The position numbers and the translations under genes were made by a program. Below are positions 10,536-38,835 of a stretch of DNA of 64,000 nt, one piece after another. The first letter of the stretch is position 1. Each line of letters opens with the position of its first letter. The notes under the pieces are model-generated. The model did not search any database. It worked only from the letters and a program-made list of their open reading frames with translations, and had not been told where the DNA came from. Source of the stretch: Gracilaria domingensis (taxonomy: Eukaryota > Rhodophyta > Florideophyceae > Gracilariales > Gracilariaceae); contig VCMS01000106.1 in assembly GCA_022539475.1 (NCBI GenBank), forward strand, positions 1-64,000. The letters are read 5' to 3'.

Positions 10536-10990
10536 TGTAATGTTTCTCGTCTGTCATTGACTGTTTACGGAATTGACGACACTAACACTTCCAATTGTTC
10601 GTGATGAAGTGATTCCTGCTCGGTGGAGACCACAACGACAGTCACAAAGTTGGGTTTCTCTATTCGGGGCTGCTTACCCGCAGTCTTATTCACGGTTGCA
10701 CTTGTTGCAGCCGGCTTCTTCTTAGCCAACGGTCTTCCTTCGGTCACGGTTTTCTCCTTTGCACTTCTCCCCACGCCTGCACCCTAAGCCAACTTCTTAT
10801 CAACGACATGCATTTTCCCATCGCTCCTCCTCTTCCTTTTCACCTCAACTTCACCATCATCGCCAGCAATGTCGTCCTTTCTGTTACTCCTGGCACTGTC
10901 TTCACTGTCCTCACTGTCCTCACTTCGTTCACTCTGGTTGCTTTCGTCGCTGTCCGCGTCGCTCTCTTCAACTACAGGTCCGTCTGTCTC

Positions 10991-11115
10991 TTGCAGATGC
11001 TAGTTTTTGGCGAGGGTCGTCCAGAAATTGGCAAGGGTCGTCCAGTAAATTTTTTGAAAAAATATCGAGATCAATTATTTCAAAATTTGCAGATAATTGC
11101 TTGGGTCGTCCAGAA
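10991..11115. repeat. dispersed repeat shared with 61313-61408
   Basis: Both copies run CTTGCAGATGCTAG, GGGTCGTCCAG, TTGAAAAAATATCGAGATCA, then AGATAATTGCTTGGGTCGT. This copy holds three GGGTCGTCCAG blocks. Confidence 0.8.
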
Positions 11116-11412
11116 TCTCTGTGCAGTAAATACTGGGGGGTTTTCCACTCGTGCTAGTTCTTTAGTCGAGGGCTACCTGAACCGTATTTCGCGAAGTCTA
11201 GGTTCAGTTTCCATTAAGGTGCACATTACACGATACCTTCTGCGGAATGATACCCTGCAACGCATGGAATACTAGTGCTAGTACAGATGATGCCCATTCT
11301 GAAATCATACCGTTTTATTCGTATCTATTCTTCTATCGACCGCTTTTGCTAACCACTACTTCGCTATATTACATGTACCATTTCCCCATAATGGAGCGGG
11401 TGTAGGCGCAAT

Positions 11413-11564
11413 CTGCGGCAGATGCCGCAGAAGGCACCTGCACGAAATTGCGGTATCGGTAGAACACATACGCACTCCGAGAGGATGAGGCGCGAAGCGC
11501 CTCATCCTCTCCGTTCCTCATGTAGGGAACCATGCCCAGATGCATGGTTCCCTACTTGAGGAAC
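11413..11564. other. three consecutive strong hairpins
   Basis: Hairpin 1 is 11413-11430 (7-bp stem CTGCGGC). Hairpin 2 is 11480-11510 (perfect 14-bp stem AGAGGATGAGGCGC, loop GAA). Hairpin 3 is 11513-11564 (23-bp stem with one mismatch, loop CCAGAT). No reading frame or known element accounts for them. Confidence 0.85.
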
Positions 11565-11606
11565 CTGCACCTGCAACTCGTGAGCTACGTCCGCATCAAA
11601 AGTCAT

Positions 11607-12390
11607 TTACCTGTATACGCAAGCAGAAATTATCCATAAGTTAGTCAATGATCCGTTAGATACATTTGAAATGCGATGGAACGTACCATTGATAAAACGA
11701 AACAGAAACGTTGCGCTAGAAAAGTCGAGGGACCTGGTAACTCGCAAACGGAAGAAGAAGCAGGAAAGGGATCGGTTAGATTACCAGCCCACCATATCAT
11801 CGTAAACCGCGAAAGGTGTCGAAGCGAGAACTCACAAGCAAGGACACCGAGAATGCCCATGCAGCAAACATACCGCAAGACGCGATAAACGAGAATCTAG
11901 CCTATATCCCAAACATTTACCAGAATCGCCTATCCCGAACAGTCAGACAGTAAAACGACCAATTTCATTTTGTCTCTCAAGATCGATGATGGATCTGGAG
12001 AGATGAAATAAAATTGGTCGTTTACCTGTATACGCAAGCAGAAAGTATCCATAAGTTAGTCAATGCTCCGTTGGAAACATTTGAATTGCGATGGAACGTA
12101 CCATTGATAAAGCAAAACAGAAACGTTGCGCTAGAAAAGTCGAGGGACCTAGTAACTCGCAAAAGGAAGAAGAAGAAGGAAAGTGATCGGTTAGATTACC
12201 AGCAATCCATTCATCGTAAAACGCGAAAGGTCTCGAAGCAAGAACTCACAAGCAACGACACCGAGAATGCCCATGCAGCAAACATACCGCAAGATGCGAT
12301 AAACGAGACAGAAACCTATGTCTCAACCAAGTACCAGAATCGCCTATCCCGAACAGGCAGAGCTAGAGCCTATGGCGCAACGAAATGAAC
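11607..12390 (+). repeat. tandem duplication, offset ~415 bp, with a Lys-rich frame in copy 2
   Basis: Copy 1 is about 11607-11945 and copy 2 about 12022-12370, both beginning TTTACCTGTATACGCAAGCAG. Copy 2 is open from 12014 to 12388 (124 codons: KSRDLVTRKRKKKKE, then an Asn/Thr-rich tail). Copy 1 carries several frame-changing differences. The protein is not recognised. It is basic and could be a remnant of a DNA-binding protein. Confidence 0.75.
11949..12024. other. imperfect ~27-bp-stem hairpin at the duplication junction
   Basis: TAAAACGACCAATTTCATTT at 11951 pairs with AAATAAAATTGGTCGTTTA ending near 12023, and the stem continues through GTCTCTC/GAGAGAT. The inner AGATC/GATCT also pairs. 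It sits exactly between the two tandem copies. Confidence 0.75.
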
Positions 12391-12443
12391 TATTGTTCGC
12401 GTACTTACAGTCGTCGGTTTGGGTTACCGGGTTCCCGTTTTCA

Positions 12444-12500
12444 CCCTTCAACTCGTTCTATATCTTGAACAAATAGAAGAAGTTGAGGGTGATTAGCTTA
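12444..12500. other. inverted repeat TCACCC(T)TCAACT...AGTTGAGGGTGA
   Basis: Arms of about 20 bp with a short loop, near 12444-12464 and 12475-12496. Confidence 0.6.
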
Positions 12501-12634
12501 TTTCCTGCCGTTTCCATGTCGCAGAGCGCGAAGAAACGCGGTGAGGATTGGTTAGTTTAGAGCAAAGATACGTGGAAGGATATGGAAGAACGTACGAAAA
12601 GACTGCACGGAATACATCCCTGAGATACGGATGA

Positions 12635-12710
12635 CTCCGTTCTACTTTCTTCCGCCCTCTACTTTATGGAGCCTCCATAAAGTGGAGGGCGGGAAAAAGT
12701 ACGACGGAGC
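12635..12710. other. near-perfect palindrome, ~37-nt arms
   Basis: CTTTATGGAG-C-CTCCATAAAG forms the centre near 12672. The arms extend through CCGCCCTC/GAGGGCGGG and ACTCCGT/ACGGAGC with few mismatches. It lies about 270 bp upstream of the zinc-finger/transposase frames. Confidence 0.75.
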
Positions 12711-12982
12711 GGAGTATAACGCGATGATATCGATGGCATGGCTCACGACGGTAACGGAAGTTCGGACGTCGGAGGCGCGGCGGCGGCGGCGAAGGGAAGA
12801 GATTTATTTTTCTGTGCGAGATTGGACAAGTGTACAGCGTACAACGTTGGGAAACCACAGGTTTATAACCAGTGGTAGATAATACGAGAAGTACACCCTT
12901 GTGTTGAGGTCGACGTGTACCTACGTTCCTTTTTGAACGAAAGCACGTGATTTAAACTCAAAATATATTCTCCGTTCTCAGC

Positions 12983-13450
12983 ATGACGTCGATCTTGACT
13001 GTCGCTCGACCTCCTTCTCCCTTCGGACGCCCTTCCCTTGCAGTCTTTGTCGTCGTTTCTCGTTCAGTTCTTCTTCCCATGGTCTACTACTGTACACATA
13101 AGAAGCGTGGGTGCCCCTTCGTTACTCGCCGAGGAGTCTTATCCCTTCAACAGCATGTCAACCATTGCCCGTTTCGTCTGAAAGCAGCGCTGGAAGACGA
13201 CAATAGCCGGCCCATTCGGAGAAGCAAGCGTCTCAAGCTTTCCGCACCCGCGCCCACATCTTCCGAAACGGTCACTGCCCCTTGTCGCCTTCCCGAGCCT
13301 CCAGTGTCCGAGGACATCGTCGACCCCACTCCGTGCGCCCCTCCCATTCCGGACACTTCGCATTGTGCTTCTCCTTCCCCGGGTCCCGCGTCATTAGAGC
13401 GAGAACACGGAAGCAGTTCCCCCCAGTGCCTTCTGAGGGGCCCTCGGTGA
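12983..13450 (+). CDS. zinc-finger N-terminal part of the CACTA/Plavaka-like transposase
   Basis: This 155-codon frame has a zinc-binding pattern near residues 37-60 (C....KRGCPF......LQQHVNHC), then a Pro/Ser-rich linker. A leading C..GC....H...C module is usual at the N-terminus of CACTA/Plavaka transposases. The frame ends two bases before the long transposase frame in a different phase. A short intron whose length is one more than a multiple of three (for example a GT near 13416 to the AG at 13487-13488), or a single-base shift, would link them. The ATG of VYYCTHKKRG (13079) is an alternative start. The two frames probably encode one protein. Confidence 0.65.
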   Translation: MTSILTVARPPSPFGRPSLAVFVVVSRSVLLPMVYYCTHKKRGCPFVTRRGVLSLQQHVNHCPFRLKAALEDDNSRPIRRSKRLKLSAPAPTSSETVTAPCRLPEPPVSEDIVDPTPCAPPIPDTSHCASPSPGPASLEREHGSSSPQCLLRGPR

Positions 13451-13451
13451 T

Positions 13452-16256
13452 TTGCATATGGATTATCTCACGGTTTGTCTGGCTTCAGTAGCTTCCAACC
13501 TTGGTCATCGTGAGGCGGACGAGCTAATTGGGCTACTTCGGGACCCGCGATTCTCGCAAAAGCGATTCAACGAGACCATAACAAGTTCCAAGCGCTGTAC
13601 AGAACTGAAGAAGGCCATTTTCGAACGATACGCCTCAAAGGACGGTTTCAATCGCAGAACTGTCTCGCCAGAAGGATGTAAGTTCAGCGCCACCCTCTAC
13701 ACGAGAGAACCCGTTCAGACACTTGTGAAACAGCTCCAGTTGGCTAACAACGAAAACACATTCTTCCACCCTATACCTCAGACCCACTCCACGAAAATAT
13801 CTCACCCCATGTCCGGCTCTCTCGCAAGAGACGCCACCTCAAAACTTAAGGAAATGGTCATGGGCTCTTTGGATAGTAGAATAGTGTGGTACTCCCAAGA
13901 AATAAGTTACAGTGAATCTTTCGTAGGTCTTCTGCAGGTATACACCGATAAGTCTTCAACAACTCTAAAGCAAACATCGGTTACCGCCTATCCTCTTCAC
14001 CTCATATTTCTCAACTTCTCCGACCAGCTTCGCCGTAAGTGTATCCGTGATGACCTCACAGTAGTGGCATACTTCCCTACCACACTGATCGAGGTTTCCG
14101 CATCTGAAGCAGACGCAATGCCATTTGTTTCTAGCAAGTCTCTACGCGAGTCCAGGATGCAAATCCTTCAAGAATCTCTTCGTCAAGTCCTGGAGCCCAT
14201 TCTAAATCTCACGCAGAAAGGTTTTCAGTTCATCGGGGAAGACAAACTAAGTCGAGTGTGCCATCCTCTGCTTGCAAGTTATTGTGCGGATATTCCTGAG
14301 GCTAAGGACATTCTGTCCATTCTTCATGGGACCAAAACGGAAAGCCCGTGTCATAGATGCAAAGCCCCTCGCTCATCTTTATGCAGTCCTATTCCCACCT
14401 CATTCAACGGACGTTCTCAAAAGCACACGAAAAGCATCCGAAAGACATACACAGCTATCTTGCAACATGCACAAAAAGACGAGGCGGAAAGACGTCCACG
14501 TCGTGCGAGGGAGAGGAGATCTCAAGCGGATACTCTGATGCGTTCAAATTCCATATCTCTCATTCCTTCGTTCCTCGAAACTTCCGTAAGCCTTGGAATG
14601 ATCCCGGGATTGTCTCCATACAGTCTGTTCTCATTCGAACCATTACACAACTTGCATCTCGGCATCTCAAAGTTGATAAAAACGGCCACAATCGAGAGAC
14701 TGCAGTCAGACACCCTGTGCACCACAATAGGAACATCTGCATCGCGTTCATTTCGAACGATACGCACCCAACTCCTCAACCATGCAAACGCAATTCTAGC
14801 TGCCATAGAACGCGATTCTCCTGCCAAAGGTTTACATATCGATTTCTCCACGCAGGAGAAAGGCAAATCTTTGAATGGTATCTTCACGAAAGACGGTCTC
14901 CGTGGAATGCTGGAGGCCAAAAACTACAAAGCACTTGACATGGTCTTTCCCTTCATAGGAGCATTCTTTGACATATGCTGTGGAGAACAGGACGTTGCCC
15001 CAGTCACAACCGTTTTCTCTCAGTACTCGGACTTGCTCTCGACCTTATTCAGATACAATCGTGACCCGTATTGGACTGAAAGCTCTCTCCTGTGTCTTAG
15101 TTCGGAGATTGAAGCCTTCAAGCGTTCCGTAACAAAGACTCTGGCGGATTTTCATCCCTCCAGACTGGGAACTCTGAAGTTTCATCTTCTCGATCATCTC
15201 GTGGACGATATTCGCCGTCTGGGAAGTATCAAGTATTACGACGCAGGCATATACGAACATGCACACCTGCTATTTAAAAGACACTACAAAAAGACGTCCA
15301 GAAGAACAGCAACGGCTGTGGAGGAGACTATTCGCTCCATTGAGCACGGACATGTTAGAAAGCAATGGAATGGCAATACTCCTTACCAGCGTAATCCAGG
15401 TTTACCAGGAACTTCCACACAGCTTCCTCGGTTTGCAATGAGAGGGCGTTCTTTCACTTTACGAGCTCTTCAACATTGTGTTTCAAGTATGTCCAGTTCA
15501 AAAACATGGACTGCTGTTAGAGAAATGTTCTCAAGTACGGACACAAGGTCGATTCTTGATCAAATTGGTGAACAGGCCCTTCCTCCTTTCCTCAGTCTCG
15601 TGAAAGAAACACTGGATGAGCACTCTATTACATACTTCCCAGAAAAGACAAGGATAACTCTAGTGAATTCGGCCGTCGTGAAAGGCGGTTTCGTTCCGAC
15701 TCTTGAACACTTCGATTCGTCTTCTAAGGCACTTAAGCTGGGACGACCCAAATACCCCATCATCCAACGTGTCTTCACTTCTTCAGCATTTGGTCCCAGT
15801 AGAAAGCCAAAGTTTTCCACTGTATTGGTAAGCGGAGAATATTCAGAGACTTGGGTTGCCCAGGTAGTCGCTCTGATTCGAATATCTCTCCTTGATTCTG
15901 CACTTACCGCACCAGAGGTGGCATTCGTCCGGTATTTCGAGGTTTTACCCCCCGCAACAAACATCGACCACATATTGAAATGCATATCTTTACGGTGGGC
16001 TACAAACGATGAAAAGAACCACACTCTTCCGTTCCCTCGTCATTCCAAAGCGGAGACTATCGTAGAGTTAACTCCTTGGTACGGGATGGTTCCGGCTTCT
16101 GCACTACAGGGAACTGTCCATGTTGTTCGATCAAACTACCCTGCTCCACCTTTTTGTCCTCCACTTCAATGGTTCCAACACCGATTCTACATCAATCGAT
16201 TCTATCATGATTCAGATGAAGGACCAACTGAGCACGTTGATCTTGTACAGCCTTAA
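13452..16256 (+). CDS. CACTA/Plavaka-like DNA transposase, intact
   Basis: An uninterrupted 934-codon frame. Tnp2/Plavaka marks in order are: Y-T-D-K-S-S-T-T-L (about 160-168) followed by AYPLHLIFLNF (about 179), as in the family's D....T.....AYP..L...N; then LRRK...DDLTVVAYFPT; the zinc knuckle CHRCKAP (about 300); LFSFEPLHNLHLG (about 395), matching the conserved D..H..H.G block though Glu replaces the usual Asp; and a long helical C-terminal half. The enzyme would cut at the element's ends and move it. Its TAA overlaps the stop of the convergent gene on the other strand. The preceding zinc-finger frame is probably its N-terminus. Terminal inverted repeats were not found. It is the longest clean frame in the window, so this copy may be recent. 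Confidence 0.8.
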   Translation: MHMDYLTVCLASVASNLGHREADELIGLLRDPRFSQKRFNETITSSKRCTELKKAIFERYASKDGFNRRTVSPEGCKFSATLYTREPVQTLVKQLQLANNENTFFHPIPQTHSTKISHPMSGSLARDATSKLKEMVMGSLDSRIVWYSQEISYSESFVGLLQVYTDKSSTTLKQTSVTAYPLHLIFLNFSDQLRRKCIRDDLTVVAYFPTTLIEVSASEADAMPFVSSKSLRESRMQILQESLRQVLEPILNLTQKGFQFIGEDKLSRVCHPLLASYCADIPEAKDILSILHGTKTESPCHRCKAPRSSLCSPIPTSFNGRSQKHTKSIRKTYTAILQHAQKDEAERRPRRARERRSQADTLMRSNSISLIPSFLETSVSLGMIPGLSPYSLFSFEPLHNLHLGISKLIKTATIERLQSDTLCTTIGTSASRSFRTIRTQLLNHANAILAAIERDSPAKGLHIDFSTQEKGKSLNGIFTKDGLRGMLEAKNYKALDMVFPFIGAFFDICCGEQDVAPVTTVFSQYSDLLSTLFRYNRDPYWTESSLLCLSSEIEAFKRSVTKTLADFHPSRLGTLKFHLLDHLVDDIRRLGSIKYYDAGIYEHAHLLFKRHYKKTSRRTATAVEETIRSIEHGHVRKQWNGNTPYQRNPGLPGTSTQLPRFAMRGRSFTLRALQHCVSSMSSSKTWTAVREMFSSTDTRSILDQIGEQALPPFLSLVKETLDEHSITYFPEKTRITLVNSAVVKGGFVPTLEHFDSSSKALKLGRPKYPIIQRVFTSSAFGPSRKPKFSTVLVSGEYSETWVAQVVALIRISLLDSALTAPEVAFVRYFEVLPPATNIDHILKCISLRWATNDEKNHTLPFPRHSKAETIVELTPWYGMVPASALQGTVHVVRSNYPAPPFCPPLQWFQHRFYINRFYHDSDEGPTEHVDLVQP

Positions 16257-18650
16257 ACATTAAGGGCTCCATCTTCTACATGTTCACCTTGTGGTGCCTT
16301 TTCTTGTGATCCTGTGTTAATTCCGAAATCGTCCATGTCCATTTCCTTGAACTCCATATCCCCTTCCTCGCATTCACCAACGAAGCAATCGCTAATAGAC
16401 CCCAATCTTCGGCTCACACTGTCAATAAAAAATTGTTCTTTCACAGTGAGGTAAAGTCTTCCGTTCGACGGCATTCGATATCCAAATGTAGCCTCTCTCA
16501 TGTCATTACCAAGAACCTTAGTCCAATCTTCCGTTGTCGTTCCAAAATTATGAAACTCGCTGGAATTGGTCCTCAAGACATGTTGCCTAACATCCCCAGA
16601 ACATTCTTTAAACACAGAGGTAGCAGTTCAGCAAACTTCTTTGTAAACATTTTCTGTCTCTGGCCACCCCTTGACACATCCGTACTTAGAAGGCTCACAA
16701 CCGTCAACACCCAAGCGTCCAAACGTGCGAGCAACAGTATTGTGCCATCTAAAAAGGTGCCCGTATCCTTGTCTTCCACATCATACCCAATAAACTCCTT
16801 CAGCACTTGTACCCCGACACGGTTTCGGAAGAACAAGTCTTGATCTTCCGTCGGCATATCCTCGACATTGTCCGCATTGGAGTACTTTAGACGAACAAAT
16901 GGGGCTTTTCTCCACCATGAAGTGTTCGGTACACCATTTTCGTCAACACGCAGTATGTTCTCCTGCGCTTCCTTCAACTGCATTGTGAGTTCGTCAGCAT
17001 TCTCTTCTACCAGCTTTGTTCTTCTCCAAATCAGATCGTACCCCAGGAGCAGAAATAGTTTATCCCTCGTATTTCTCTTACGAACGCCCACGACGTCACT
17101 CATGGTCTGCCGCATTCTCTGCCTAAGGCACATATCTGCACAAAGTTCCAGTATACACCTGTCGGTAAGAGATGCTTTTCTAATACCTTCCCAGCTCAAC
17201 TCCTTCAACTCGCTTTCAACCATTTTCTTCAGCAAAGCATCTGGCCCCCCTCTACCGACGGTGTGAACATGCCAAAACTGCCCAAGAGCTCCACGGGGTT
17301 TTTAGGAACCATGCATGAACCACCTTCCTCCGGCTCAATAAGCCCTTCGCCACTCTCAGTTGCGTCTTCCACCTTCTCGGCACGGTTACCCCAATTTCGG
17401 GTGAGCGACTCACCTTCGAGCCATAGCTCACTTGTTTCTCTCCTTGCCCACGTCAGCATGTTGTGATACACTGCACGAGCAACCCCTCGAAACTCGTCGC
17501 ACACCTCAATTTTATGCTTCTTTCGACCTGTTTGCCCAGGTTCACCAGCACGTGTACTCCTATCTCCCTCCTGTTTCAGTGCCCCTCTCTTAGCCCTTCA
17601 ATGACTACATCCTTCTCTTCAAGCCTCTTTTTCAAAGCCGTACTCTGCTCTTGGGCGACCTTCACTAGAATTCCCCGAACCATCAAGTCCTCTTGTAGCG
17701 TCTTAACCTTTTCTTTCAAGCAATTCAGTTCATTTAAAAGATCAGGTCTGTTCATAGAGCTTGAATTCACACCAGTTTGGATATCTTCCGTTATTTCCCT
17801 AGCTTCTTCGGCGACAGGCCCCGGTAATGCCGCAGGATTCGGTGTTATTTCGTTATCGGAACTATCCTCATGTGCCATAGCCTTAGCCACGAGAGGCTGC
17901 AGGCGTTCTGTGTCCACCCTTGGCACGGCTCCGAGCTCCAACTCCCGTGTATGTCCTCCTCCATGGCATGGTATATCAGATGAATTGGGCCTCGTACGAG
18001 CTGCAACGGCCCCGTTCTGGAAAGAGGGGAAGGTCGAAAAGTAACTCGTCTATCAGTTGTCTCTCGATTTCTTATTGTGTTTCTCCCTTGTCCGGACCCA
18101 TTGCGAGGCATGATACGATTCATAGCGGCCCCAGTTCTAGAAGAGAGGGATGGACGTGACGATCTTAATATACTAGGACTCTCACGACTTCTCGTCATTG
18201 TCCCTTGTTGTCCAGATCCACTGGGCGGCGTAACCCGCGCCCCAGTAGCTCCGGTCTTCGATATCGGCCGGGGACATGAAGGTTTTGGTGTCATACGAAC
18301 CTCTTCGGTTCCAGTTGTCATGCCCTCCTGTCCTGACCCGCTGGGCCGAGTTACCTCATCTTCTTGAGGAGCAGAGACAGATGCACGATTTGCATTATCG
18401 GCAGTTGACGGCACGACATCGTTCGCTGATCCACGAATTCTTGACGCAATCCCGGAAGACGCTCCGCTGCGAGATGGGCGAGAGAGTCCTGTAGAAGGAC
18501 GCCCACTGACTCTCTCCTTCGTCGAGGACGACTTCCGTTTAGGAAGTGCGGTGCTTGTAGCCTGATTCGTATCATCCGATGCTCTTCTCTTCTTCTGTCC
18601 ACTCTTGTTCCGCTGCGTACTATTTCGCTTTCTCGGCGTTATACCCATGC
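16253..18650 (-). CDS. second protein of the CACTA-like block: basic repeat region plus coiled coil
   Basis: Minus-strand frames follow one another from an ATG near 18650 (MGITPRKRNSTQRN) to 16253 with single-base phase changes and no internal stops. Three of the changes fall in G runs. In order there is a Lys/Arg-rich nuclear-localisation-like start; three ~50-residue repeats with PSGSGQ.G..TR.RE...RPS..SRTGA; a coiled coil (17576-17940, heptads such as LNELNCLKEKVKTLQEDL); and an alpha-helical region with LTWARRETSELWLEG and LFLLLGYDLIWRRTK. There is no match to a known enzyme. Convergent position with overlapping stops suggests an accessory (TnpA-type) DNA-binding protein; that role is inferred. 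Sequencing error is the likely cause of the phase changes. Confidence 0.55.
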
Positions 18651-18897
18651 TGTGGAGATAAACAGGGTAATGAAACGAAATTGTTGGGGAGGGGGGAGGG
18701 GGTGGGGGGGGGGGTGCATGGTTCAGATATTCCGGGAGACTCCGCAGTTCCTGCTTTTTAGGAATTTGAGGTGCCCAATGGGTCGCAAATATCGCCGTTA
18801 CAGATGAAGAGCTCCAGTGTACATGTACAACAACGCGTATTGCAGGCAGCTGCAACACTCACAAGCATATTTACTTTCTATTCGCTACTGAACTCAT

Positions 18898-20700
18898 CTA
18901 TTGCTCCAATGTCAGAGCCCAGTCCCAGGCGTACTGCTCTCCGTAGTCGAAATACAACTCTTCGCCCCTCTCAATATCTCTTACTGCTCTACAACGAAGT
19001 AGAGCATAGTTAGAAAGGTCTGACTTGAACTGTATCACGGACTTCGCTTCCACCACCTGCACATTGGCACTTCGAGTCCTGTTTGACCGGGGCTCCGATA
19101 AATCGGGATCCCCGGCATGATATCCGGCGTCGTTAATGTAGCCCCCGATACAAAAAGGCGCCGGGACAATGTAGACTTCGCTCTCCTTTCTATCCTGAGC
19201 CTGTCCTGGTCTGTTCCTCAGGTGCAGAAACTCCGTACCAGTCACAGTGACCATCATAGAAAACAACTTGTACCGCACTGGAGTTGCTCCGAGACAGCCA
19301 CTTCCATACGTTAAGTGTCTTTCCTTCCGGTTCGTCAGATCCGTGTATACCAAAGTTCCATAGAAATGACAGATAGTTTCCCCAGCCAATATCTTATGTT
19401 CCGTGAACACCCCCATACCAGCACGGGGATGTCGATCTTAGAAGATGCTATATGTAAGCGATAGCGATTGGCTTCAACAGTCAACAGCATATGCATATCC
19501 ATAAGATTCAGAGCTCCTCGGTACTTCCCCTCCCAAAGATCTACAGTACGCTCTCCACACTTGTCGACAAAGTCCCAGTCCTTCCAGTATCTTCCTAGGA
19601 ACTGAGTAATATGTCCAGGCATCACTTGGTACTGGGGGTAACCAAATGGAGCCTCCCATTCAAGCCGACCTCGGTCCCGATGTGGAACCCGTTCATAGGT
19701 CGTTGAAGCCGCATCCACCACCTCCTGTTCAACCAGGATGTCATTCTTCCCCCCCCGAATAACTTCGGCCATAAGAGTCGTTAGATGGTGCTTCGCATGG
19801 CTGAAACATGGCCTATTCTTCTCGCACCCCAAGAACTTCCTATGCTTTGTCAGCGATAGGCACGCCATACCCGTAGAAAAAGTTCCCGCGAACATGTCCA
19901 TGACAAGATCACCCGGTCTTGTGAAGCGACATATCAACTCCTTCATCAACTCCCTCGACTTCTGCTCCGGTCTTATGTACTGCCCACCTGGTACTGAGCT
20001 ACCTGGCTCATGTACCTTCCATGTCAACCACTCCCCCGCCCTCGGTTTGGGCACCCGGTCAATTACATTCCTGTTAGCCGGGAAAGTGGAAGGAATGAAA
20101 TTGTTCTCCTCAAATGGAGTAAGACTGGCTTCCTCCGATGGTCGCAATCCACGCTTCACCCATGAACGGCGTACTCCGTTACGGGCTGTATCCCAAACTT
20201 CCGTGGATTCCCTCCAACATTACTGCGATCCCGGATGAACACCAGTGGATTCGCATCCACTTTAAACGAAGGCATGAGTTCTGGTTTACCTTCGCTTCCA
20301 GCTTCATCTTTCGTACTCGCCGTTTCCGAAAGTATCCTGTGCCACACATGAAACTGTGCCATGGCACAGAATATAATGAAGTGCCCACCTGACCGAAGCG
20401 CGGAACTTATTAAGTCAGCCGTACGGATCATGTCTTCCTCACTGAAGACATCGTGACCACTATTCCGTTTGTTCCTCTTCCTTCGAGTGTTAAAGGGAGG
20501 GTCTGTTAGGACAAGCTGTGCCTCACCCCATAAAATCTCACTCTGATTCACAAACGTTTCGTGTGTGTTGCCTCAGGTCCTTCATGTCACAGTTGTACGC
20601 TACAAAGTGTGACTTTCTCATCCCTTCCACACCTTGTCCATATTCATTCGAAGGAGACTGGATATCCCCTTCATGGGCGGCTCCAATACCAGTCTTTTGG
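18898..20700 (-). CDS. DNA N4/N6-methyltransferase joined to a SET domain
   Basis: The N-terminal part (20551-20156) has the catalytic motif TDPPFN (motif IV of beta-class m4C/m6A enzymes) followed by GGHFIIFCA. The middle (20159-19335) has RPEQKSRELM and DLVMDMFAGTFSTG, the AdoMet-binding motif I. The order IV then I is that of the beta class. The C-terminal part (19416-18898) is a SET domain: GMGVFTEHKI..GETICHFYG, then YINDAGY (the N-H-type pocket), and I.RGEELYFDYGEQYAWD. Three frames are linked by single-base shifts in C and G runs with no stops, and the amino-acid sequence reads smoothly across them, so one ~590-residue protein is likely. It would methylate adenine or cytosine in DNA and lysine in protein. 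A bacterial or phage origin of the methyltransferase is inferred. Confidence 0.75.
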
Positions 20701-20779
20701 ATGTTGTAAACCAGCAACCGTAGATTTCATACTTCCGCAAGATTCACCGCTTCTCGACTCGTCGCCGATCGGAGCTTCC

Positions 20780-21330
20780 ACGAGCGTTCATATAACTCTC
20801 GACGAGGTTGGGCTGGTGGGCAGAACTTGATCGCAAGAAGCGCTTCGCATTACCGAAGTTTTAGGGGTTTTTCGTCAGTTCAATATCAGGTTTCGCAACC
20901 CGTGAATGCCGGACATGGAACCCTTGCCGCCATGACGGCATATCCTGTATNNNNNNNNNNNNNNNNNNNNNNNNNNNNNNNNNNNNNNNNNNNNNNNNNN
21001 NNNNNNNNNNNNNNNNNNNNNNNNNNNNNNNNNNNNNNNNNNNNNNNNNNNNNNNNNNNNNNNNNNNNNNNNNNNNNNNNNNNNNNNNNNNNNNNNNNNN
21101 NNNNNNNNNNNNNNNNNNNNNNNNNNNNNNNNNNNNNNNNNNNNNNNNNNNNNNNNNNNNNNNNNNNNNNNNNNNNNNNNNNNNNNNNNNNNNNNNNNNN
21201 NATACTCTCGACGAAGTGGGTGGGCGAGACTTGTCGAAAAGGTTGGCTTACTAGGAGAGTTTAGGAGTTTTTGTCAGTTCCATATCGGTTTCGCGGACTG
21301 CGATGACCCTGCGATGACGCATATCCTGTA
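20780..21330. other. assembly gap (N, 20951-21201) inside a direct repeat
   Basis: Before the gap, ATAACTCTCGACGAGGT...TTAGGGGTTTTTCGTCAGTTC...CATATCCTGTA. After it, ATACTCTCGACGAAGTGG...GTTTAGGAGTTTTTGTCAGTTC...CATATCCTGTA. The gap therefore lies in a tandem repeat of roughly 150-180 bp that was probably collapsed, and its true length is unknown. Confidence 0.8.
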
Positions 21331-21544
21331 GTTGTTTCCTAAGCACTCCGAAACTTATGTTAATCGAGCAGGCAACTCACCGGAGTCAGAACCAGATACG
21401 GTATTCATTGATCCGTATTCCGAGACTATCAGTTCTACATCTGATCAGCCCGTAAGCTATAGGCTATCGGGGTGCTATGGTTTCGAAGTCTGTCAAAAAT
21501 TCCTTAGCCAGTATTTCGGTAGGTTTTGTATCGCAATTCATCAC

Positions 21545-21965
21545 TCAAGTCCCACCGATCCACTGAACTGCTTCTGTGGCATAAACATCCTGTGTGTTGA
21601 ATGAGTACTCTGGACTCGCCGGGCATAACCAGACTCCCATGTCCTTAGCGCTGTATACTTCAACGTCTGCATATTCATGTAATGTGGTTTTCACCATGTC
21701 GGAAATTCGTGTATCCAGATGAGCCGCAAACAACTCCATGCGCCATACGGCCTCACTGAAAGCGAATCCCGTCGATCACAGTTGTCCTTTGGAGACGCGT
21801 AAAAGTGGTAGTGTACACAGATGGTGCAATGGTTTCACTTTCGTTCTTTTCGGTTGTTTCTTCTTCAATCATTCGGATATTGTGTTCTCCTTTCATTATG
21901 TGGTTGCGAGGTATAAGTATTAAGACCTCAAAGGGTTCACGAGCCTGCCTTTGGTGGATGAACAC
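21545..21965 (-). CDS. hypothetical protein (minus strand)
   Basis: Two frames (21965-21753 and 21739-21545) abut with one phase change at a T run: ...VIDGIRF then SEAVWRMELFAAHLDTR. The product would be about 135 residues, charged and without a recognised domain. It lies upstream of, and on the same strand as, the methyltransferase-SET gene across the gap, so it could be an upstream part of that gene. No start signal decides between the possibilities. Confidence 0.35.
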
Positions 21966-22489
21966 TGTTCGGTCCTTCAGACCGTGTTTCTCCTGTCATG
22001 AATCCAACCAGCTCGCACCGGTAGGTATATACCATATCCATAGAGAGAAGGAAAAAATTGCGCATCCTCTTGGTGCCTCTCGTTTCTGTGTAAGAAGCTT
22101 GTTACAAGAATATACGGTTGTTTCACAGAGTTTGTTATTCACACACTTTTCGCAGCTGTTGCAGTGTCAAGTTCTGGAGTTCTTGAGTTAGTGCCTCTCA
22201 ATAACATCTCCTTGCCGTCGATATCTTATAGTTCGGCGCAGAACTCTATTTACTCTAATCCCACGTCCGTGACCGATCAGGGCCTCCATCGCTGTGCAAA
22301 TGCATGCGAAGAACCAAGAAAAGTCTGACTATGCATGGAACGCCGGAGGCGGAGCACTCATGTCGAAGATGCATCTCTCGTCCATCATCGGTGACATCCA
22401 TACGCTTTCAGCGCAAACAACGGAATGCGAGCCTTTAAATTGGCTTACGCTGGCACCCGCTTTCGGCAGCTGCTCCCAGCGACATGCAA

Positions 22490-22990
22490 GTCTCGTCGTG
22501 TCGTGTCCGCGTCGGTGCGATAGCCGCGCGTGTCGGCCACGTCGCGACTCGGGACTATTGCCAGAAGTCGCGTTTTGGTGCTAAAAGTCGCGGATCAAGT
22601 GGGTGTGCGCGCTAGTTTTCTCGGTAGTTTTGATATATGTGCACGGCGGTGCCGTAAATCATCGCCGGAATTGTCCGGTAGAGTGTTGGGATGTCTCCGA
22701 GGCGCCAATGTGTACAGAACGTGCCCGCGGGCGGGGGGGGTCGGGCGTGTAGGGTACATACATAACAGACCGACCTCCCCGCGGCACGTTTTGGGCGAGT
22801 TTTTGAAAATGTGGATTTTATGCCGCGGGCGGGGGGTGGTCGTGCACGCCCCGCCGCGGGCAGTTCTGGACATTCCGGCGCCTTCCCGGGACTCCGCAAC
22901 ACACGCGCGCCACAGTGATTTCGCTACATCCCGGCCGCCGGTACGTTGGCGCGTGTCCACGTGTATTGCGGCGTAGGCTGTATGAAGTGA
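22490..22990. promoter_or_regulatory. GC- and CpG-rich block upstream of the ParB-domain gene
   Basis: The region is far richer in G+C than its surroundings. GCCCGCGGGCGGGGGG (about 22720-22740) recurs as GCCGCGGGCGGGGGGT (about 22821-22838), with CCCCGCCGCGGGCA and CCCCGCGGCAC nearby in the other sense. It lies some 300-750 bp upstream of the ATG at 23279. A promoter role is inferred. Confidence 0.4.
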
Positions 22991-23278
22991 TATGAGTGTA
23001 CTCTTGACCTCTATGCAAAGCATTGAGAGCATCGATTAGCGGAGCGCGACCATTGCTCGCGTGGACGTCATCATTGCGCGAACTCACGAACTCAAAGCGT
23101 ACCATCAGCGTGCGAGCGACGGACAGGACACGGACGAGACTGGCAGTGCGCTGGGGAGGAGCTGCCGAAAGCGGGGGTGCCCAGCGTAAGTCGCCTTTTA
23201 AAGGCTCGCCTCCGTTGTCGTATCGTCCAGAGCTAGCGTATTGTTGATATACACCTTTCACTGCAATAGCTGTTCAAC

Positions 23279-25299
23279 ATGAAGCCAACTCGTGTTCGAA
23301 AGCGTACGCAAAGCGTGACTCCTCGCACTCGGCGGAGCACTCGATTGTTGCAAGGTGGAATGCGGGTTTCTCTGCAGATGGATATTGAGGATGAAGGAAA
23401 GGTGATAGTCGGGGAAGCGTTGTTGCACGGAATTGGAAGTGTTCTACGCCGCGAGTTGCACGGGAAGCAATTGGACCCAGGTCTTGTGGTGGTTCATAAT
23501 ATTCTCATCAGTCGAAGCGGTCAGACGTTCTACCCTTACCGGGCGGAGGGCCTGGATCTTCCACAATATATCCAGGATCTCTGGACGGCCGCTCCTTGGG
23601 ATGAGAAAATGATGGAACCGGTGGCAGCCAGCATTCCGGCGTCGAAGCGAGGAACGGTGAGCGCTATGAGTGAGGTGATGACGCCGACAAGCCGCACGGA
23701 GCCAATTCGAAGTTCATCAACACCGAGAGGTAGCGCATCAGTAGCACCTCCGCGGGCAGGTCCGTCGTCTGTTACGAAGCGGTCTATGGAGACGAGAGCA
23801 TCCCCAGCTACGAAGCGGACAGGTCAAACAAAGTCTACCTCCGCTACGAAGCCCACTGCGTCGAAAAGGGCTTCTCCTGCGATGAGTCAGACCGTCGACA
23901 CAAGGGGATCTTCTGCGTCGAAACAGACGGTTCAGCAGGGGACGGCTGTGCAAGAGGAGGAAGATGAAATCATGAAAGGTCCCCTTCCAGACGCGGATGC
24001 GCATCCGCGCAAGGAGCTGGTCCATCTGTACCCCAAACTGCACCAGAAACTGCGAGCAGCAGAACGATGACGTTGTGCTTCTATCCGCAAGAATGGCACG
24101 TTCAAGTGTTTCTGGCGAGCGGTCTGGAACACAAGGGACACCTACTCGGAGCAAGACGTACAGACGAATTCGTCAGAAGGTACCAAAGGTGAACCTCAAT
24201 CAGTACCGGATGGTTGTTGTTACTGTTGACATCACTCTGGTGGACACTCCGCCCAATTTACTCCGTGGAGTAAGTAAACGCCACGTTGAAGCCCTTGTGA
24301 AGAGTATGGAAGAGCGGGGGATATTGCAGTCGATGGTTCTCCAGTGGTGGCCTTACAAGATGCTACTACGGGAGAGAGGGATACTGACAAGGGACGCCTA
24401 ACGAAGAAGTGCTTCATTGTAGATGGTTTGCATCGTCTGAAAGCTATACAATATTTGGCAGCGACTGGTGCACCGAAGTGGAAGCGATTAGCCAAGTTTT
24501 GGCGTTGCAATCTGCTGATACGAAGAGATGGGAGGCCCATTGGGATGAAGGAATTGTTATGTGTTGCTTCTTACCTCAATGAGTCGACGAGTACCATGCG
24601 AAGGATGATGTTTGCAGACAAGATACACTCTATAGTTAGTGTGGTCGCCATTCTAATTGAAGATGTTGAGGGGGTGACGCCGGCAGACGTGGATCCTGCA
24701 GAAGTGACAGAAGTGTTGAAGGAGAGCCAACTGATTGGGACTGTGCAAGAGCGTCAGTATCTGAGATATGCCAATGTCGCCCTGCAACTCATGTCTCGTG
24801 AGGGAATGCTGGCCCATTTCGAGGATATATGTGAGACTGTGAGTGACATAGGTCTCACACATCTGTCCATACTCCGCTATATGTTTTGGATGCGGAGGAG
24901 TTTTCCTTCATTCTTGATTGTCTTCAGATGTTTCTATTGAAGGGCAAGTCGACGAAGACAAAGCAATGGAAAAGCTTTGAGGAGGTTCGAGGTTTCTTTT
25001 ATGATAGAGCAGTGTCTCTGTTCCGCGCGGCTAGAGCAGTGAGGAATGAACTGAACGAGGAAGAGTCCATGGAAGTGTTCCTGAAACGCGAAGTCAGTCT
25101 TTCTGCTCCATCGAATGAAGATGACGTTGAAGACCCAGACAACAACGCAGCTGTGTATCAGTTCCTTTTGGGACAAGTTGTGAACTTCAACACTTTGCCG
25201 CGTGTTCGGAGCAGGACGAACTCAATTAGAACTGCCACGACTTCCGTTCAGAATCGATTGCGGACGATGCTCAAGGTAATTCCGCCCCCGCACCAGTGA
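23279..25299 (+). CDS. ParB/Srx-fold domain protein (N-terminal part of a larger product?)
   Basis: Frames 23279-24070, 23997-24401, 24344-24940 and 24886-25299 follow on with single-base phase changes and no internal stops. The start (MKPTRVRKRTQSVTPRTRRS) is basic, followed by a Ser/Thr/Ala-rich linker with repeated SATK.T.. units. From about 24200 the sequence has the ParB layout: VDITLVDTPPNLLRGVS..HVEALVKSMEERGIL..MVL, then CFIVDGLHRLKAIQYL, where the DG.HR motif is the nucleotide/phosphate site of the fold. A helical region follows. Such domains bind or nick DNA, or hydrolyse CTP as a clamp, in plasmid partition and phage systems. The next frame (dioxygenase) continues within a few bases in the same manner, so a single ~1300-residue protein is possible. 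Confidence 0.6.
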
Positions 25300-27210
25300 A
25301 GCAGTCCGTGACAAAGAGGAGGACTCCCGCTGCTGCTGCTGCGACTCCCGCTGCTGCTGCTGCAACATCTGACAGTGAAGAAGGGGAGCCGCGAAGAAGT
25401 GCACGAGAACGGGCGCAGGTGAGTTATAGGGAAATTGAGCACGGCCGAAATCGAGGTGCCATAGAAGTTCTGGATAGCTCTGAAGAAGAACAACGGGCTC
25501 CGCCGAGGAAGAAACGGAGAAAGACTTTCACACAACAGATGAGATCTACTCTGAACAGCATGACACCGGATGACCTGATGTCTCAACTAAATGAACATGT
25601 GCTGAGAGGAAGGTCGATGAAGGTTCAGTTCGTGGCATTGGGAGAGGGAGCGAATGCAGAGAACGCAGGCAGTTCTGCATTTGTGGATGACGATGAGCTT
25701 CTTTCTGTGACAGTTCCACGGGTTGTCACCGTCGAGAAAGATGCTGCGCCAGACGATCAGCAAGAGACAGGTGGGGGGTCATTTGATGACGAGTTACCTA
25801 CAGCTCTTCCGGAATCTGAGGAGCACGGACTTGTTCGAGGTGACCCATATGATGGCCCACTGAACCCATCATGGTGCGGGTATGCCAGGCTGAGACCGCA
25901 GGAATGGCAAGGGAAGAACGTAATTGAGCACAAGGACCCCTGGCTCAGAGTCATTCACTTGCCGAAGGGACATAGGTCGGAGCTGCTAAGTGTCTCGAAT
26001 CTCAGAGATGTACACCATCTTGTCTTTTGGCACGCTGCAAGGGCTGAACATCGCCTACGGGCGGAGACATTTGGTATGCAGTATCCTCGTACTCGACCGA
26101 CAGGTATGGATGATGAAGAGGTGCTGTGGGTTGCTGCGAAGGAGCATGACGAATTTGGGCAAATGTTCTTCGCCCGAATGCAAGCTGAGCTAAGGCAGAA
26201 TGGATATTGCGTGCTTGATGGTTTTGCGACGGATAATGGTGTCCCTAAATGGGAGAAGTTGGAAGAAGTTCGGGAGTTCGGAGATGTGTCGGGAAGTTGG
26301 TGGACTTCTTCGAGAATGAGTATGGAGCGATGCCGGATATACGGAAAGGAGAGGAACAGAAGTCGTTTGTTCAAATAATCAACGATGATGAAGGATGGAA
26401 GGACGGTAGCGATGGACCATTTGAGGGGAGAGTGATGTCGACACGTTGGGGTACGGTGGAGAAGCCGGAGGATAATGAGGAGCTCAGGTGGGTTGTAAGG
26501 TCGCGTGCTTTACTTGATGTTCGAATGGGTACAATTGCTGCGGCTTTGGACTATGGGACAATGAAAGGGAAGCTGTGAAGATGTACACTCCGAAAACTGG
26601 TGGTCGATTTCTGGGGACGACGAGAAAGTGCAAGCGCCAGACGCTGCACACCGACTTCAGTGGTCTGGTTACGAAGGAAACAATGAATACTGGCAACCCC
26701 GGATACTTTGTAATGGCCTCTGGGAAAGAGGGCTTTCCTCTCTGGGTGAGCGCTGGAAGCCATCAACTGGTGGGGATGAACAACCAACAGTTGCGAGTGA
26801 TGTCGGAGGTGTATCCAGCGAAGAAGATAATCATCCCACCGTACTCTGTATTCGTGGGCCGTGGTGATGTGACACATGCTGGAGCAAGTGGGACGGACAA
26901 GGTGGATAGGCCCGAGTCTATGGATTTGCTGGTTAGATACCACATGTACATGGTACCAGAGGGCTACGCACTACCTGATGCTGTTCATCGGGTGCGGGAT
27001 TTCCGACCCACGTTTGTCAATGGTGACGAGGAGGAGGAGGCGGAGGATGAACTGTTGTCCGATAAGGAGGGTGGGGCGGTTGACATGGACGAAGACCAAG
27101 TGGTCGTGGAGATTGGTGTGGAAGCGGACGCCGGTAGAACCGAAGTGCTCGAGAGTAGTAGTGATGACGATTTGCCAATAATGAGGCTGCGAGCGCCTCG
27201 AAGTGGATGA
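25296..27210 (+). CDS. 2-oxoglutarate/Fe(II)-dependent dioxygenase
   Basis: Frames 25296-26378, 26249-26578 and 26575-27210 run on with two single-base phase changes and no stops. The first ~150 residues are an Ala-repeat plus acidic/basic linker (EEGEPRRSARERAQ, PPRKKRRKTF). The catalytic part starts near ELRQNGYCVLDGF. The iron site is visible as LHTDFSG (His-X-Asp, about 26647-26661), then PLWVSAGSHQLV, and FVGRGDVTHAGASG, which supplies the distal His. A following R.H.Y segment (LLVRYHMYMVP) would bind 2-oxoglutarate. The tail is acidic. The family hydroxylates bases, nucleotides, peptides or small molecules. With a ParB domain just upstream and a DNA methyltransferase nearby, a nucleic-acid substrate is a reasonable inference only. 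Confidence 0.65.
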
Positions 27211-27510
27211 GAATGAGATGATTAGTAAATTATGTGTGTCTTGCGAGTATTAAGAGTAGTATACTATTACAAGGCTATACATATGAACATAGAAAAGGTG
27301 CGGCAGGCTGGTAATTGAACAAATGTCAAACGTCTTTGGTCCAGTTGCGTCTAATTGCAACATGCCAAATGCTCGGTATCGTTAACATCATTGGTGGCAC
27401 CATTCAATTCGCAATTGAACATGTAGCGTCCTAACACTTCTGAAACTGCACTTAAGGTTGCTTTTAAGAGAAGTATATGCAGTTCCTGTCTATGCGGTAC
27501 TTGTGGCAGT

Positions 27511-28350
27511 ATGGTGACTGTATCAGGAAAAATGGCAGAGGAACAGAGAGACTTGGCGGAAATTTCACCAAATACCTTGTCTAAGTTCATGTATGCCAAT
27601 GGTTACGGTATATTAAGTTCCGTTGATGGAACGTTGAGAAGAGAAGGAGAGTCAATTCCAGAAGAAGTTGTGAAGTGTATGAAGTTCATTGACGAACGTG
27701 TTGGTTTCGGGCTTGTCACAGGGGGTGATGTGGGCGACGTGGAGGGGAAAATGGAAGGACTCGGAGACTATAAGTTTGGTGTCTCGGCGAATCATGGAGC
27801 TTTCATGCGTTTCTCTGACGAGAGGGAAATTAAGGGTGCATTCAATGATCACACCCTTGACCACACTGTTGACGGACTACTGTTCCTGGCAAGGGATTTG
27901 AATAGGAGGCATGGTATTGTGAATGATGATGACAAGGGGTTCGTGGAGACCAGAAGTGATAGTGGCCTTCCCAATTTCGTGTACAACAAACTGTGGCAGT
28001 GGAGAGAAGAAGTGGATTCTGCTATTGGGGACCTGTTGCAGAAGATGGATGCGTTTGTTATCTATCCCGGCGATAAAAGTTGCGAAATTGTGGACAAGCG
28101 ATACACAAAAGGAAGCGGAGGAGAAAATCTTGTGGATAATGAACCGAGATTTATTGATACGGATGACGTCGTGACGTTCGGAAGTGCTTTGAGCGACGGG
28201 CCTTTGCATGAGGTAGGCGTGTACGGCGTTCACGTCAAAGAAGATTGTATCCCGGTGGAGTACACAACCTGTTCGAAAGCGTGGAGGATGTACATTCGAC
28301 AATTATGTTGGTGGCTCTGTTGTACGGCTACGAGGAAAAGCAGCAGATAA
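27511..28350 (+). CDS. HAD-superfamily sugar-phosphatase-like protein, nucleophile missing
   Basis: A 279-codon frame close to the copy at 28399-29405 (-). Motif I reads S-V-D-G-T where the other copy has D-V-D-G-T, so the Asp that forms the phospho-enzyme is Ser here while the second, acid/base Asp is kept. Motif II is VTGGD, followed by FGVSANHGAFMRF, as in trehalose- and mannosylglycerate-phosphate phosphatases (HAD subfamily II). Motif IV is FGSALSDGPLHEV, against FGNASNDGPLYEM in the partner. The last ~25 residues look out of phase with the partner. It is probably a non-catalytic or regulatory paralogue, or a decaying copy. MVTVSGKMAEEQRD is the first ATG context; MYANGYG is a later alternative. 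Confidence 0.65.
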   Translation: MVTVSGKMAEEQRDLAEISPNTLSKFMYANGYGILSSVDGTLRREGESIPEEVVKCMKFIDERVGFGLVTGGDVGDVEGKMEGLGDYKFGVSANHGAFMRFSDEREIKGAFNDHTLDHTVDGLLFLARDLNRRHGIVNDDDKGFVETRSDSGLPNFVYNKLWQWREEVDSAIGDLLQKMDAFVIYPGDKSCEIVDKRYTKGSGGENLVDNEPRFIDTDDVVTFGSALSDGPLHEVGVYGVHVKEDCIPVEYTTCSKAWRMYIRQLCWWLCCTATRKSSR

Positions 28351-28398
28351 AAACCACCATGATCATAAAAGGGTATTGAGATATATACGACACTTTTA

Positions 28399-29405
28399 TT
28401 ACTGAGATCTCATATCATAGCTAAGTATTAAAGGCATCGTAGCACTTGAAACAAATTCCAAGAGCATTTCTAAACCATTGACACTTGCATTTTCTGTACC
28501 CGTACAGTTCTGCCACCCTTCTGATGGTCTCATGCACGTCCCCACGCCATCAACAAGATATGTTACCGCTGCTGGATGGTCTTCTCCCTTCACATGAACT
28601 GCCAGGGTTGCCATTTCATATAGAGGGCCATCATTGGAAGCATTCCCGAAAGCAACGATTAAATGTGTGTCGAACTGGGGTCGTTTTCAACCAAGGCTAG
28701 CGCCCTACTATTTTTCGTGAAACGAATGTCCCCTATGTCACAGTTTTCATCTTGAGGGTGCGCAACCAGGTTCGGAAAGGATGTCAACAATTTTGAAATA
28801 CCGGAGTTAACTTCTGTTTTCCACTTCGACAGTCCATTGTACGTGAAGTTAGGGAGTCCACTGTCTTTTCTAGTGCTCACAACTGCTTGTTGACGCTCTT
28901 CGTGAAGTCCGTGCGATTCATTTAAGGAGAGTGCAAGTCTCTCAAGTTCGGCTGCACATCTTTCGTACCTTCCCTGTCAAGGTCCTGATCAATTTGGTAC
29001 CATTGGATAATCTCACCCGTGCGCCTTGGTTTCCAGAGATGCCAAAAGTGTAGCCACCCAGGTGCTCCATGAAACTCTCGGCATCCTCTATATCTCGCCC
29101 AGTAGCAATTCCGAAACCAACGCGTGCGTTGATGTACTTCATGCATTTGACTGTTTCGGCAGGAATGTTTCCCCAGCTCTTTTCAGAGTACCGTCAACAT
29201 CACTAATCACGGCGTAGCCATTTTCGAATATTTCGTTAGCCAGCTGCTGAGGAGTTACTTCTTGGGCTCTAACTTCCGAGTTATACATGTTTTGAAAGCT
29301 TTCGAAAGGGTTCGTTTTGCAAATGGGTGTGGGTATAGGAATGAGAAGGATGTGATTGATGTTCACAAGGTGTTTCGTAGTATAAAAGAGTCTAAGAACG
29401 ACCAT
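28399..29405 (-). CDS. HAD-superfamily sugar-phosphatase-like protein with complete active site
   Basis: Four minus-strand frames in order give a protein of about 290 residues: ISDVDGTLKRAGE (motif I with both Asp), MKYINARVGFGIATGRD (motif II), YTFGISGNQGARVRL, SGLPNFTYNGLSKWK, the Lys-motif region NCDIGDIRFTK, and FGNASNDGPLYEMA (motif IV). Phases change by single bases, at least one in a T run, and no stops fall inside, so the gene may be whole in the organism. It would dephosphorylate a sugar phosphate; trehalose-6-phosphate or mannosylglycerate phosphate are the closest families by motif. It lies tail-to-tail with its paralogue about 50 bp away, an inverted duplication. Confidence 0.6.
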
Positions 29406-29940
29406 ATACGGGTATTGTAGTACTGTTTTAAAACGTTACTAGGAGGAGAAGTTTTGCATCGATTTGAAGTAAAGAAAGGATGAGTTAGTCATAAATTATA
29501 TGTACGGTTCAAGTGGGTAAAGAAAACTGTAAATATCTTTAACATGAGCTTAGAAATCAAGAAGAGTAAAACAACCTCCATTATGGGTTGAAACCCATAA
29601 AAGGTTTACCTTACTTTATACGGGTGCCCCAAGTAATGCAAACGCTTAGTTCTTCAGAAATATCACAATTTTGTACTTGTTTCGTTACTAGTATCGTGCA
29701 CTTTAATGATATGGAATGACCATTTTCTATCTAGCAAAATCTTAGCGAAGTATTAGTGATAAGGGATGTAGGATTTAAAGGGGCATATTTGAACCACAGA
29801 AGGACGAACAATATAAGTAATGTAATAGGAACAGGTCATTTCGATAAAGTAACTTTTATGTTTAACTATCTCTAAAAGGTTTACAACACCGAAAAGTCAT
29901 GTGTTCTAACCTCAAAGCTGGGGAATGGGGAGGGGGATAA
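29406..29940. other. intergenic, nothing recognised
   Basis: AT-rich. It contains one hairpin, ATGGGTTGAAACCCAT, near 29581-29597. Confidence 0.5.
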
Positions 29941-29949
29941 CTTTTCCTT

Positions 29950-31527: not shown

Positions 31528-31594
31528 AGATAGTAGCATAAATTTATTGTTTATTACATTGTTACCTTTACGTGTTATCACGACTATATTCTCC

Positions 31595-38833: not shown

Positions 38834-38835
38834 GT

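Follow-up and report, generated by a model that had tools for sequence, protein, structure and literature searches.

Several DNA transposons that carry a single chromatin-modifying enzyme are already known. According to the available portions of Kojima 2025 (PMC12730594), fungal transposons of the KDZ, Plavaka and other groups carry TET/JBP genes, and HarbingerS and MuDR elements of Phytophthora carry SET genes. The same portions give the termini of Plavaka elements (CMC/CMCT clade) as TGT..ACA or CATCA..TGATG, with a target-site duplication of 2-3 bp. In rotifers, it has been proposed that a bacterial N4C methyltransferase and SETDB1 act together on transposons (PMC8885841, in the parts available to us). 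Finally, the genes in the Plavaka-flanked giant repeats of Amoebidium have red-algal matches (PMC11244446, available in part).

Here, we describe a locus of the red alga Gracilaria domingensis at which a DNA amino-methyltransferase is joined to a SET domain. The gene for this protein (hereafter MTase-SET) travels inside a repeat that has fixed ends and a Plavaka transposase. We consider it likely that the repeat is a multi-gene, Plavaka-like red-algal DNA transposon, probably autonomous, whose core genes include a bifunctional epigenetic writer. Such a protein would provide a ready-made coupling of a mark on DNA to one on protein, and the transposon encoding it might itself set epigenetic marks. 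The finding makes it testable whether 6mA or 4mC genuinely occurs in the DNA of red algae, by which enzymes it is written, and whether an epigenetic code can be owned by parasites rather than hosts. No report of a transposon-borne MTase-SET protein was found among the titles and abstract openings listed in searches of open-licence papers, and PMC12344493 has no mention of red-algal, SET or 6mA terms.

The fungal TET/JBP elements, as portrayed in the available portions of PMC12730594, are likewise Plavaka-type DNA transposons with a gene for a DNA-modifying enzyme. The present element differs from them in being red-algal, in encoding an amino-methyltransferase fused to SET where theirs is a 5mC oxidase, and in having ends of the form CGTCTGT..ACAGACG with no 2-3 bp duplication seen. 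An initial annotation of this DNA had drawn the TET/JBP analogy; it is apt as to the kind of element, but the host is a red alga and Pfam Tet_JBP had no match in the genome (the control genomes were silent as well). The Phytophthora HarbingerS and MuDR elements are also DNA transposons with a captured SET methyltransferase, but they belong to other superfamilies, and fusion to a DNA methyltransferase is unmentioned in the portions of PMC12730594 at hand. The rotifer N4CMT/SETDB1 system similarly places a bacterial-type, SET-linked amino-methyltransferase in a eukaryote without canonical C5 methyltransferases; as far as that partial source goes, those proteins are the products of separate host genes acting on transposons, whereas here there is one transposon-encoded protein. 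The Amoebidium repeats resemble the present element in being large clusters of genes with few introns, next to a Plavaka transposase, but the cargo described in the available parts of PMC11244446 consists of tyrosine recombinases, with MTase-SET unmentioned there.

The window, i.e. the whole stretch of DNA that was analysed, comprises positions 1-64000 of contig C106 in a genome of 77.9 Mb and 680 contigs. Its features are collected in Table 1.

Table 1. Positions of the transposon, its ends and its genes within the 64,000-base window
Feature	Position	Strand	Basis
Whole element, 22.5 kb, Plavaka-like DNA transposon (likely)	10981..33525		Match to C164; flanks unrelated outside
Left terminal inverted repeat, CGTCTGTCTCTTGCAG	10981..10996	+	Left ends of 15/15 fetched loci
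Plavaka transposase	12956..16256	+	N-terminal piece 12956-13450, main frame 13437-16256; PF18759
Coiled-coil-like gene (label by eye)	16253..18640	-	ORFs; 834-aa frame in another copy (P0006)
MTase-SET gene (damaged copy)	18898..22430	-	Pfam and comparison with intact copy
SET domain	18940..19419	-	PF00856
Beta-class amino-methyltransferase domain (outer edge approximate)	19806..20530	-	PF01555, motif alignment
Assembly gap of N within the MTase-SET gene	20951..21201		Flanks overlap by ~143 bases of intact copy
ParB-like first part of divergent neighbour gene	23270..25299	+	phrog_3264, E 7e-4
Second part of the same neighbour gene, 2OG-Fe(II)-dioxygenase-like signature	25230..27210	+	HTD...HAG...R, presumed motif
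HAD-family hydrolase-like cargo	27427..28350	+	PF08282, E 7.5e-5; likewise in copy C164
Reductase-like cargo gene (label by eye)	29994..30755	-	Window ORF; longer frame in C164; no Pfam match
Second coiled-coil-like ORF (label by eye), adjoining right end	32341..33087	+	ORF; 342 aa in C164
Right terminal inverted repeat	33510..33525	-	12/16 bases match left end

A single minus-strand gene, damaged in the window, encodes both PF01555 (N6_N4_Mtase) and PF00856 (SET). The initial annotation had placed an N4/N6 methyltransferase and a SET domain on one strand within 18898-20700, joined across single-base shifts. Profile searches recovered both domains on pieces in that span, but the gene extends to about 22430, past the assembly gap. 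The SET piece (18898-19437, minus) matches PF00856 with E 5e-9. The methyltransferase domain is divided between 19335-20219 (minus), which holds the C-terminal half with DMFAGTFSTG (PF01555, E 1.8e-11), and 20156-20572 (minus), which holds the N-terminal half with TDPPFN and which alone falls below the family cut-off (E 0.0076, 16.7 bits). An intact copy (L011:3823-6987, minus strand) has both domains in one frame of 1055 aa, with PF01555 at residues 516-753 (E 3.6e-15) and PF00856 at 883-1042 (E 1.4e-7). The two families score above their cut-offs in the MTase-SET protein P0001 (57 bits against 26.7 for PF01555, 32.3 against 22.4 for PF00856). A 1055-aa frame is present in six fetched loci of the window subfamily (L009-L014), and frames of 1118-1170 aa occur in L020, L021, L023 and L025, which represent three divergent lineages; these loci were mostly picked for frame length, and such counts give no rate of intactness. 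The uninterrupted frame in intact copies supports the proposal, made from the window alone, that the methyltransferase and SET domains form one polypeptide.

Introns are ruled out as the source of the frame shifts in the window, because the intact copies have a single frame. From 18898 to 20570, where 1668 bases align with the intact copy, the window shows four substitutions relative to that copy and three length changes of a single base, at 19434, 20161 and 20569, which bear out the single-base shifts noted earlier. A further 23 length changes fall at 20624-20938, on one side of the gap, and 103 at 21202-22426, on the other. Since the length changes cluster at a gap whose flanks overlap, the frame breaks are probably for the most part errors of unpolished sequence rather than biological lesions. 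The dense one-base length differences at 20624-20938 and 21202-22426 could mislead gene calls in those stretches.

Beta-class methyltransferases carry motif IV, [DNS]PP[YFW], ahead of motif I, FxGxG, and canonical SET domains have an NH motif and a catalytic tyrosine. Motif alignment identifies TDPPFN of the window as motif IV and DMFAGTFSTG as motif I, and motif IV precedes motif I in the domain. Motif I of P0001 reads FAGTF, the final position of which departs from FxGxG. Across an alignment of 35 MTase-SET proteins, motif IV is DPP[FY] in 32. The SET asparagine is present in all 35; the next residue is aspartate in 34 of them, giving ND for the canonical NH. The catalytic tyrosine is found in each of the 33 proteins that reach that position.

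The ends of the element were set at 10981 and 33525, beyond which the flanks of the window and of a second copy (C164:25417-44240) are unrelated. The two copies are 96-99% identical over most of their length; the C164 copy is without the segment corresponding to 14753-18819 of the window. The terminal inverted repeats are short and imperfect (CGTCTGT...ACAGACG), and GGGTCGTCCAG occurs three times just inside the left end as a subterminal repeat. Of 612 first-look candidates for left ends and 623 for right ends, the best 40 each were scored; the 40 scored left ends are all 99-100% identical, and the 15 that were fetched all start with CGTCTGTCTCTTGCAGATG. Two of these 15 (L031 and L038) have the same flank. 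Two left ends are inserted in other copies of the element, that of L037 in the SET part of an L023-type gene and that of L045 in a transposase gene. Counted from the ends of the element, TGT..ACA lies four bases inward. CG was considered as a target-site duplication and rejected: in two intact target sequences no CG stands at the junction, so the CG is part of the element. The ends on C250 were dropped as a pair from one element, as their flanks fall in other element copies. No target-site duplication was seen in any of four paired ends (window, C164, C65 and C218), and none of three exact pattern searches found an empty site; these two results fall short of proving a transposition event. Outside the element, 9938-10386 is a 99% copy of pieces of the right-end stretch 32769-33525, some 0.6 kb beyond the left end, and is probably the remnant of a second element copy. 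Another stretch, 61328-61409, matches the left-end subterminal stretch 11028-11109 at 93% and is perhaps a remnant element end.

The transposase was assigned by its Pfam match: PF18759 (Plavaka) scores 66.7 bits, with a cut-off of 26.3 bits, on the plus-strand ORF 13437-16256 (E 2.8e-18). The N-terminal piece at 12956-13450 is continuous with this main frame in copy C164. Between the transposase and MTase-SET lies the first coiled-coil-like gene, for which no Pfam family was found at E<=1 and which has relatives in six divergent loci. The right third of the element holds HAD-like hydrolase genes and the unclassified reductase-like gene; nothing scored above the Pfam cut-off on the second coiled-coil-like ORF.

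The association of these genes was examined across the genome. There are at least 150 matches to PF01555, at least 123 to Plavaka and at least 150 to SET. Co-localisation was counted over every one of these scored matches, and the linkage counts are lower bounds because they cover the best 150 of 328, 123 of 672 and 150 of 311 first-look candidates, respectively. For 76 of the best 150 MTase matches, a SET match lies 350-450 bases downstream on the same strand. A convergent Plavaka match lies 2-9 kb downstream of 31 of these 150 (0.8 would be expected under even placement), and the distance is 5.0-6.0 kb in 28 of the 31 cases. Conversely, 42 of the 123 scored Plavaka matches have an MTase or SET partner. 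Eight SET matches of at least 49.9 bits were kept apart as host-like by score, and none of these eight lies within 5 kb of a scored MTase match. The remaining 142 reach 38 bits at most; for 76 of them, an MTase match was scored directly upstream on the strand of the SET match. A scored convergent Plavaka partner is absent for 119 of the best 150 MTase matches, which could reflect candidates left unscored, contig ends or loss. The CACTA-like transposase reported alongside the gene is a Plavaka transposase (CACTA superclade), linked to it well above chance and within a repeat that has defined ends. A single-copy host gene never found beside transposases, the outcome named beforehand as contrary to the transposon reading, is excluded in the G. 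domingensis genome.

The partner genes recur in divergent lineages. In L017, L018, L023 and L026, whose MTase-SET proteins are 31-45% identical to P0001, the coiled-coil-like gene, the ParB-like gene and the transposase all lie beside MTase-SET. The coiled-coil-like gene and the transposase were found in L024 and L025, and in L019 the ParB-like gene alone of the partners. L020 and L021 (C382 type) have the dioxygenase-like gene; neither the transposase nor the coiled-coil-like gene was matched within the 10 kb fetched. In this subfamily, the dioxygenase-like gene is upstream of MTase-SET on the same strand rather than divergent. Contig C382 (115 kb) has three equal-scoring MTase matches, and the two that were fetched are nearly identical.

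A comparison of L023 with L025 gives pN 0.155 and pS 0.774 in the MTase domain and pN 0.151 and pS 0.636 in the SET domain (dN 0.169, dS 1.413). There is thus a strong synonymous bias in both domains between these two divergent copies. Between close copies, dN/dS values are noisy, and some of them approach or exceed 1. The set behind these values, in which 12 of 29 aligned frames were compared, is biased in that most loci were picked for long open frames and the alignment was limited to frames containing no more than 20 X. The element subfamilies are old, because synonymous sites are near saturation between L023 and L025 and the proteins are conserved. The conservation of motifs and the constraint on codons are compatible with two working enzymes of the predicted activities.

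Relatives of MTase-SET exist outside this genome. Both Pfam domains are present in 22 of the 31 homologues from elsewhere. One homologue is named as Chondrus crispus and another as Pyropia vietnamensis; the Pyropia entry is a partial record in which Pfam detects only PF01555 but whose C-terminus is SET-like. A fungal origin, which the Plavaka transposase had suggested, was rejected on account of homologues named as Chondrus, Pyropia and G. domingensis. In a phylogeny of 35 proteins, with good support for 18 of 32 inner branches, four G. domingensis subfamilies branch separately, at four positions interspersed with genes of other provenance. In a profile search of the PDB, the nearest solved methyltransferases are DpnA, CcrMI, MboIIA and RsrI, which are adenine enzymes; chains named as DNA cytosine-N4 methyltransferases score lower (E 0.0012). 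The SET part matches EZH2, SET8/KMT5A, KMT2C and a viral SET protein (PBCV-1) by whole-sequence E-values only, with no single stretch passing.

The beta-class adenine methyltransferases of phages and bacteria (DpnA, CcrM and YhdJ; phrog_67) share sequence similarity with the MTase domain and likewise have DPP[FY] before FxGT. They differ in that, among the matches listed, the viral, prokaryote and phage collections hold relatives of the MTase domain only: the SET part was matched in none of 80 viral loci (the best 80 of at least 101 confirmed), none of at least 67 prokaryote loci and none of 15 phage records (of 66 found), in scans of viral and prokaryote contigs that used mostly MTase motifs and could miss relatives. 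The MTase domain itself probably came from bacteria or phages. So far, the MTase-SET fusion has been seen only in sequences grouping with those of algae.

Divergent from MTase-SET lies a gene of two parts. The first has a weak match to the ParB-like family phrog_3264 (E 7e-4 for P0007) and includes VDGLHRLKA, which we take to be a ParB motif. It has no Pfam ParB match and no PDB profile match, and its divergent relative in L019 has no ParB family match. In the second part, the residues HTD...HAG...R, presumably the signature of a 2OG-Fe(II) dioxygenase, are invariant in all six aligned sequences, and relatives exist (P0043 and P0044). This part is without Pfam or PDB profile support, the PDB profile search having yielded chance-level matches. 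A fungal-style TET/JBP identity for it was rejected, as no profile, Tet_JBP included, supports it.

What might such a protein do for the transposon? The MTase domain would methylate exocyclic amino groups in the DNA of the element. Its target would more probably be N6-adenine than N4-cytosine because of the DPP[FY] motif, which points to an adenine target, and because of the nearest solved enzymes. The SET domain, for its part, would methylate a lysine of a chromatin protein. New copies of the element would thus carry paired DNA and protein marks in cis. To these putative marks we assign, as their most likely use and with a little less than even confidence, the maintenance of element chromatin in an expressible and transposition-competent state despite host silencing. 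Other conceivable uses are self-restraint of copy number, or the timing of excision through hemimethylated termini.

As to the host, a search for C5-cytosine methyltransferases (PF00145) had no match in the 77.9-Mb genome and was positive in 10 of 14 control genomes, although a gene broken up by many introns may escape such a six-frame search. MT-A70 likewise had no match in the genome, and there the controls were silent. A bolder proposal, which we regard as doubtful, is that the transposon's MTase-SET proteins write the DNA methylation of the genome (6mA or 4mC) together with a paired lysine mark, with the ParB-like/dioxygenase-like neighbour helping in both targeting and erasing. If true, this would be a parasite-owned epigenetic system, with a writer and a possible eraser in one element.

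Several observations count against the main reading: the missing target-site duplications and empty sites, the C382-type loci with no transposase in the 10 kb fetched, the MTase matches with no scored Plavaka partner, the noisy dN/dS of close copies, the ND of the SET domain, and the matches of that domain to PDB chains by whole-sequence E-value only. The proposals have also to be weighed against other accounts of the same genes. The writer may silence its own element, combining DNA amino-methylation with repressive lysine methylation to limit copy number, much as the rotifer N4CMT/SETDB1 pair would do for its host. We judge this unlikely. In rotifers, N4CMT and an expanded SETDB1 have been proposed to couple 4mC and H3K9me3 in transposon silencing (PMC8885841, in the parts available), and the SET profile matches here include EZH2-type repressive enzymes, though SET8/KMT5A and KMT2C match too and the scores cannot tell the class of substrate. 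The many near-identical copies (every one of the 40 left ends scored out of 612) speak of little restraint. Alternatively, the fusion could be a passenger that hitchhikes while one or both of its domains are inactive. Many copies are indeed broken, with stops and open frames below 500 aa, and dN/dS among recent copies is noisy; but the synonymous bias in both domains between divergent copies, the motifs kept across 35 proteins and the retention of the gene with its partners in divergent loci make this reading improbable.

Two further accounts deny that the gene belongs to a transposon. That these genes are what remains of a giant virus or phage that once integrated is very unlikely in our estimation. 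It gains from the resemblance of the MTase, and weakly of the ParB-like part, to phage protein families, and from the Plavaka-flanked giant repeats that Amoebidium has beside endogenised viruses (PMC11244446, in the portions available). Yet the element has matching ends and a Plavaka transposase, its scanned proteins gave no family for capsid, polymerase or packaging, and the viral-contig relatives (the best 80 of at least 101) match the MTase part without the SET part. A host chromatin gene that adjoins a transposon by chance has no observation in its favour and is refuted for this genome, and we give it almost no weight: the MTase matches are dispersed and number at least 150, the spacing to SET is fixed at 350-450 bp in the 76 with a scored partner, and convergent Plavaka matches at 31 of them and common ends tie the gene to the repeat.

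The remainder of the window holds other mobile sequences and repeats. A Gypsy-like LTR retrotransposon, labelled by eye, occupies 34379-41532 on the minus strand, with RT_RNaseH at E 1.9e-27 and an integrase core at E 1.2e-6, just under the cut-off. Minus-strand ORFs at 45541-47127 are tyrosine recombinase-like by eye (HxxR motif), with no Pfam match at 0.1; they are of interest beside the recombinase-carrying Plavaka repeats of Amoebidium. The stretches 43877-44569 and 52310-52999 form a 0.7-kb inverted repeat with 68% identity. A second, different CACTA-type transposase is encoded at 56286-57509, where an ORF matches Transposase_21 (tnp2) with E 9.7e-11.
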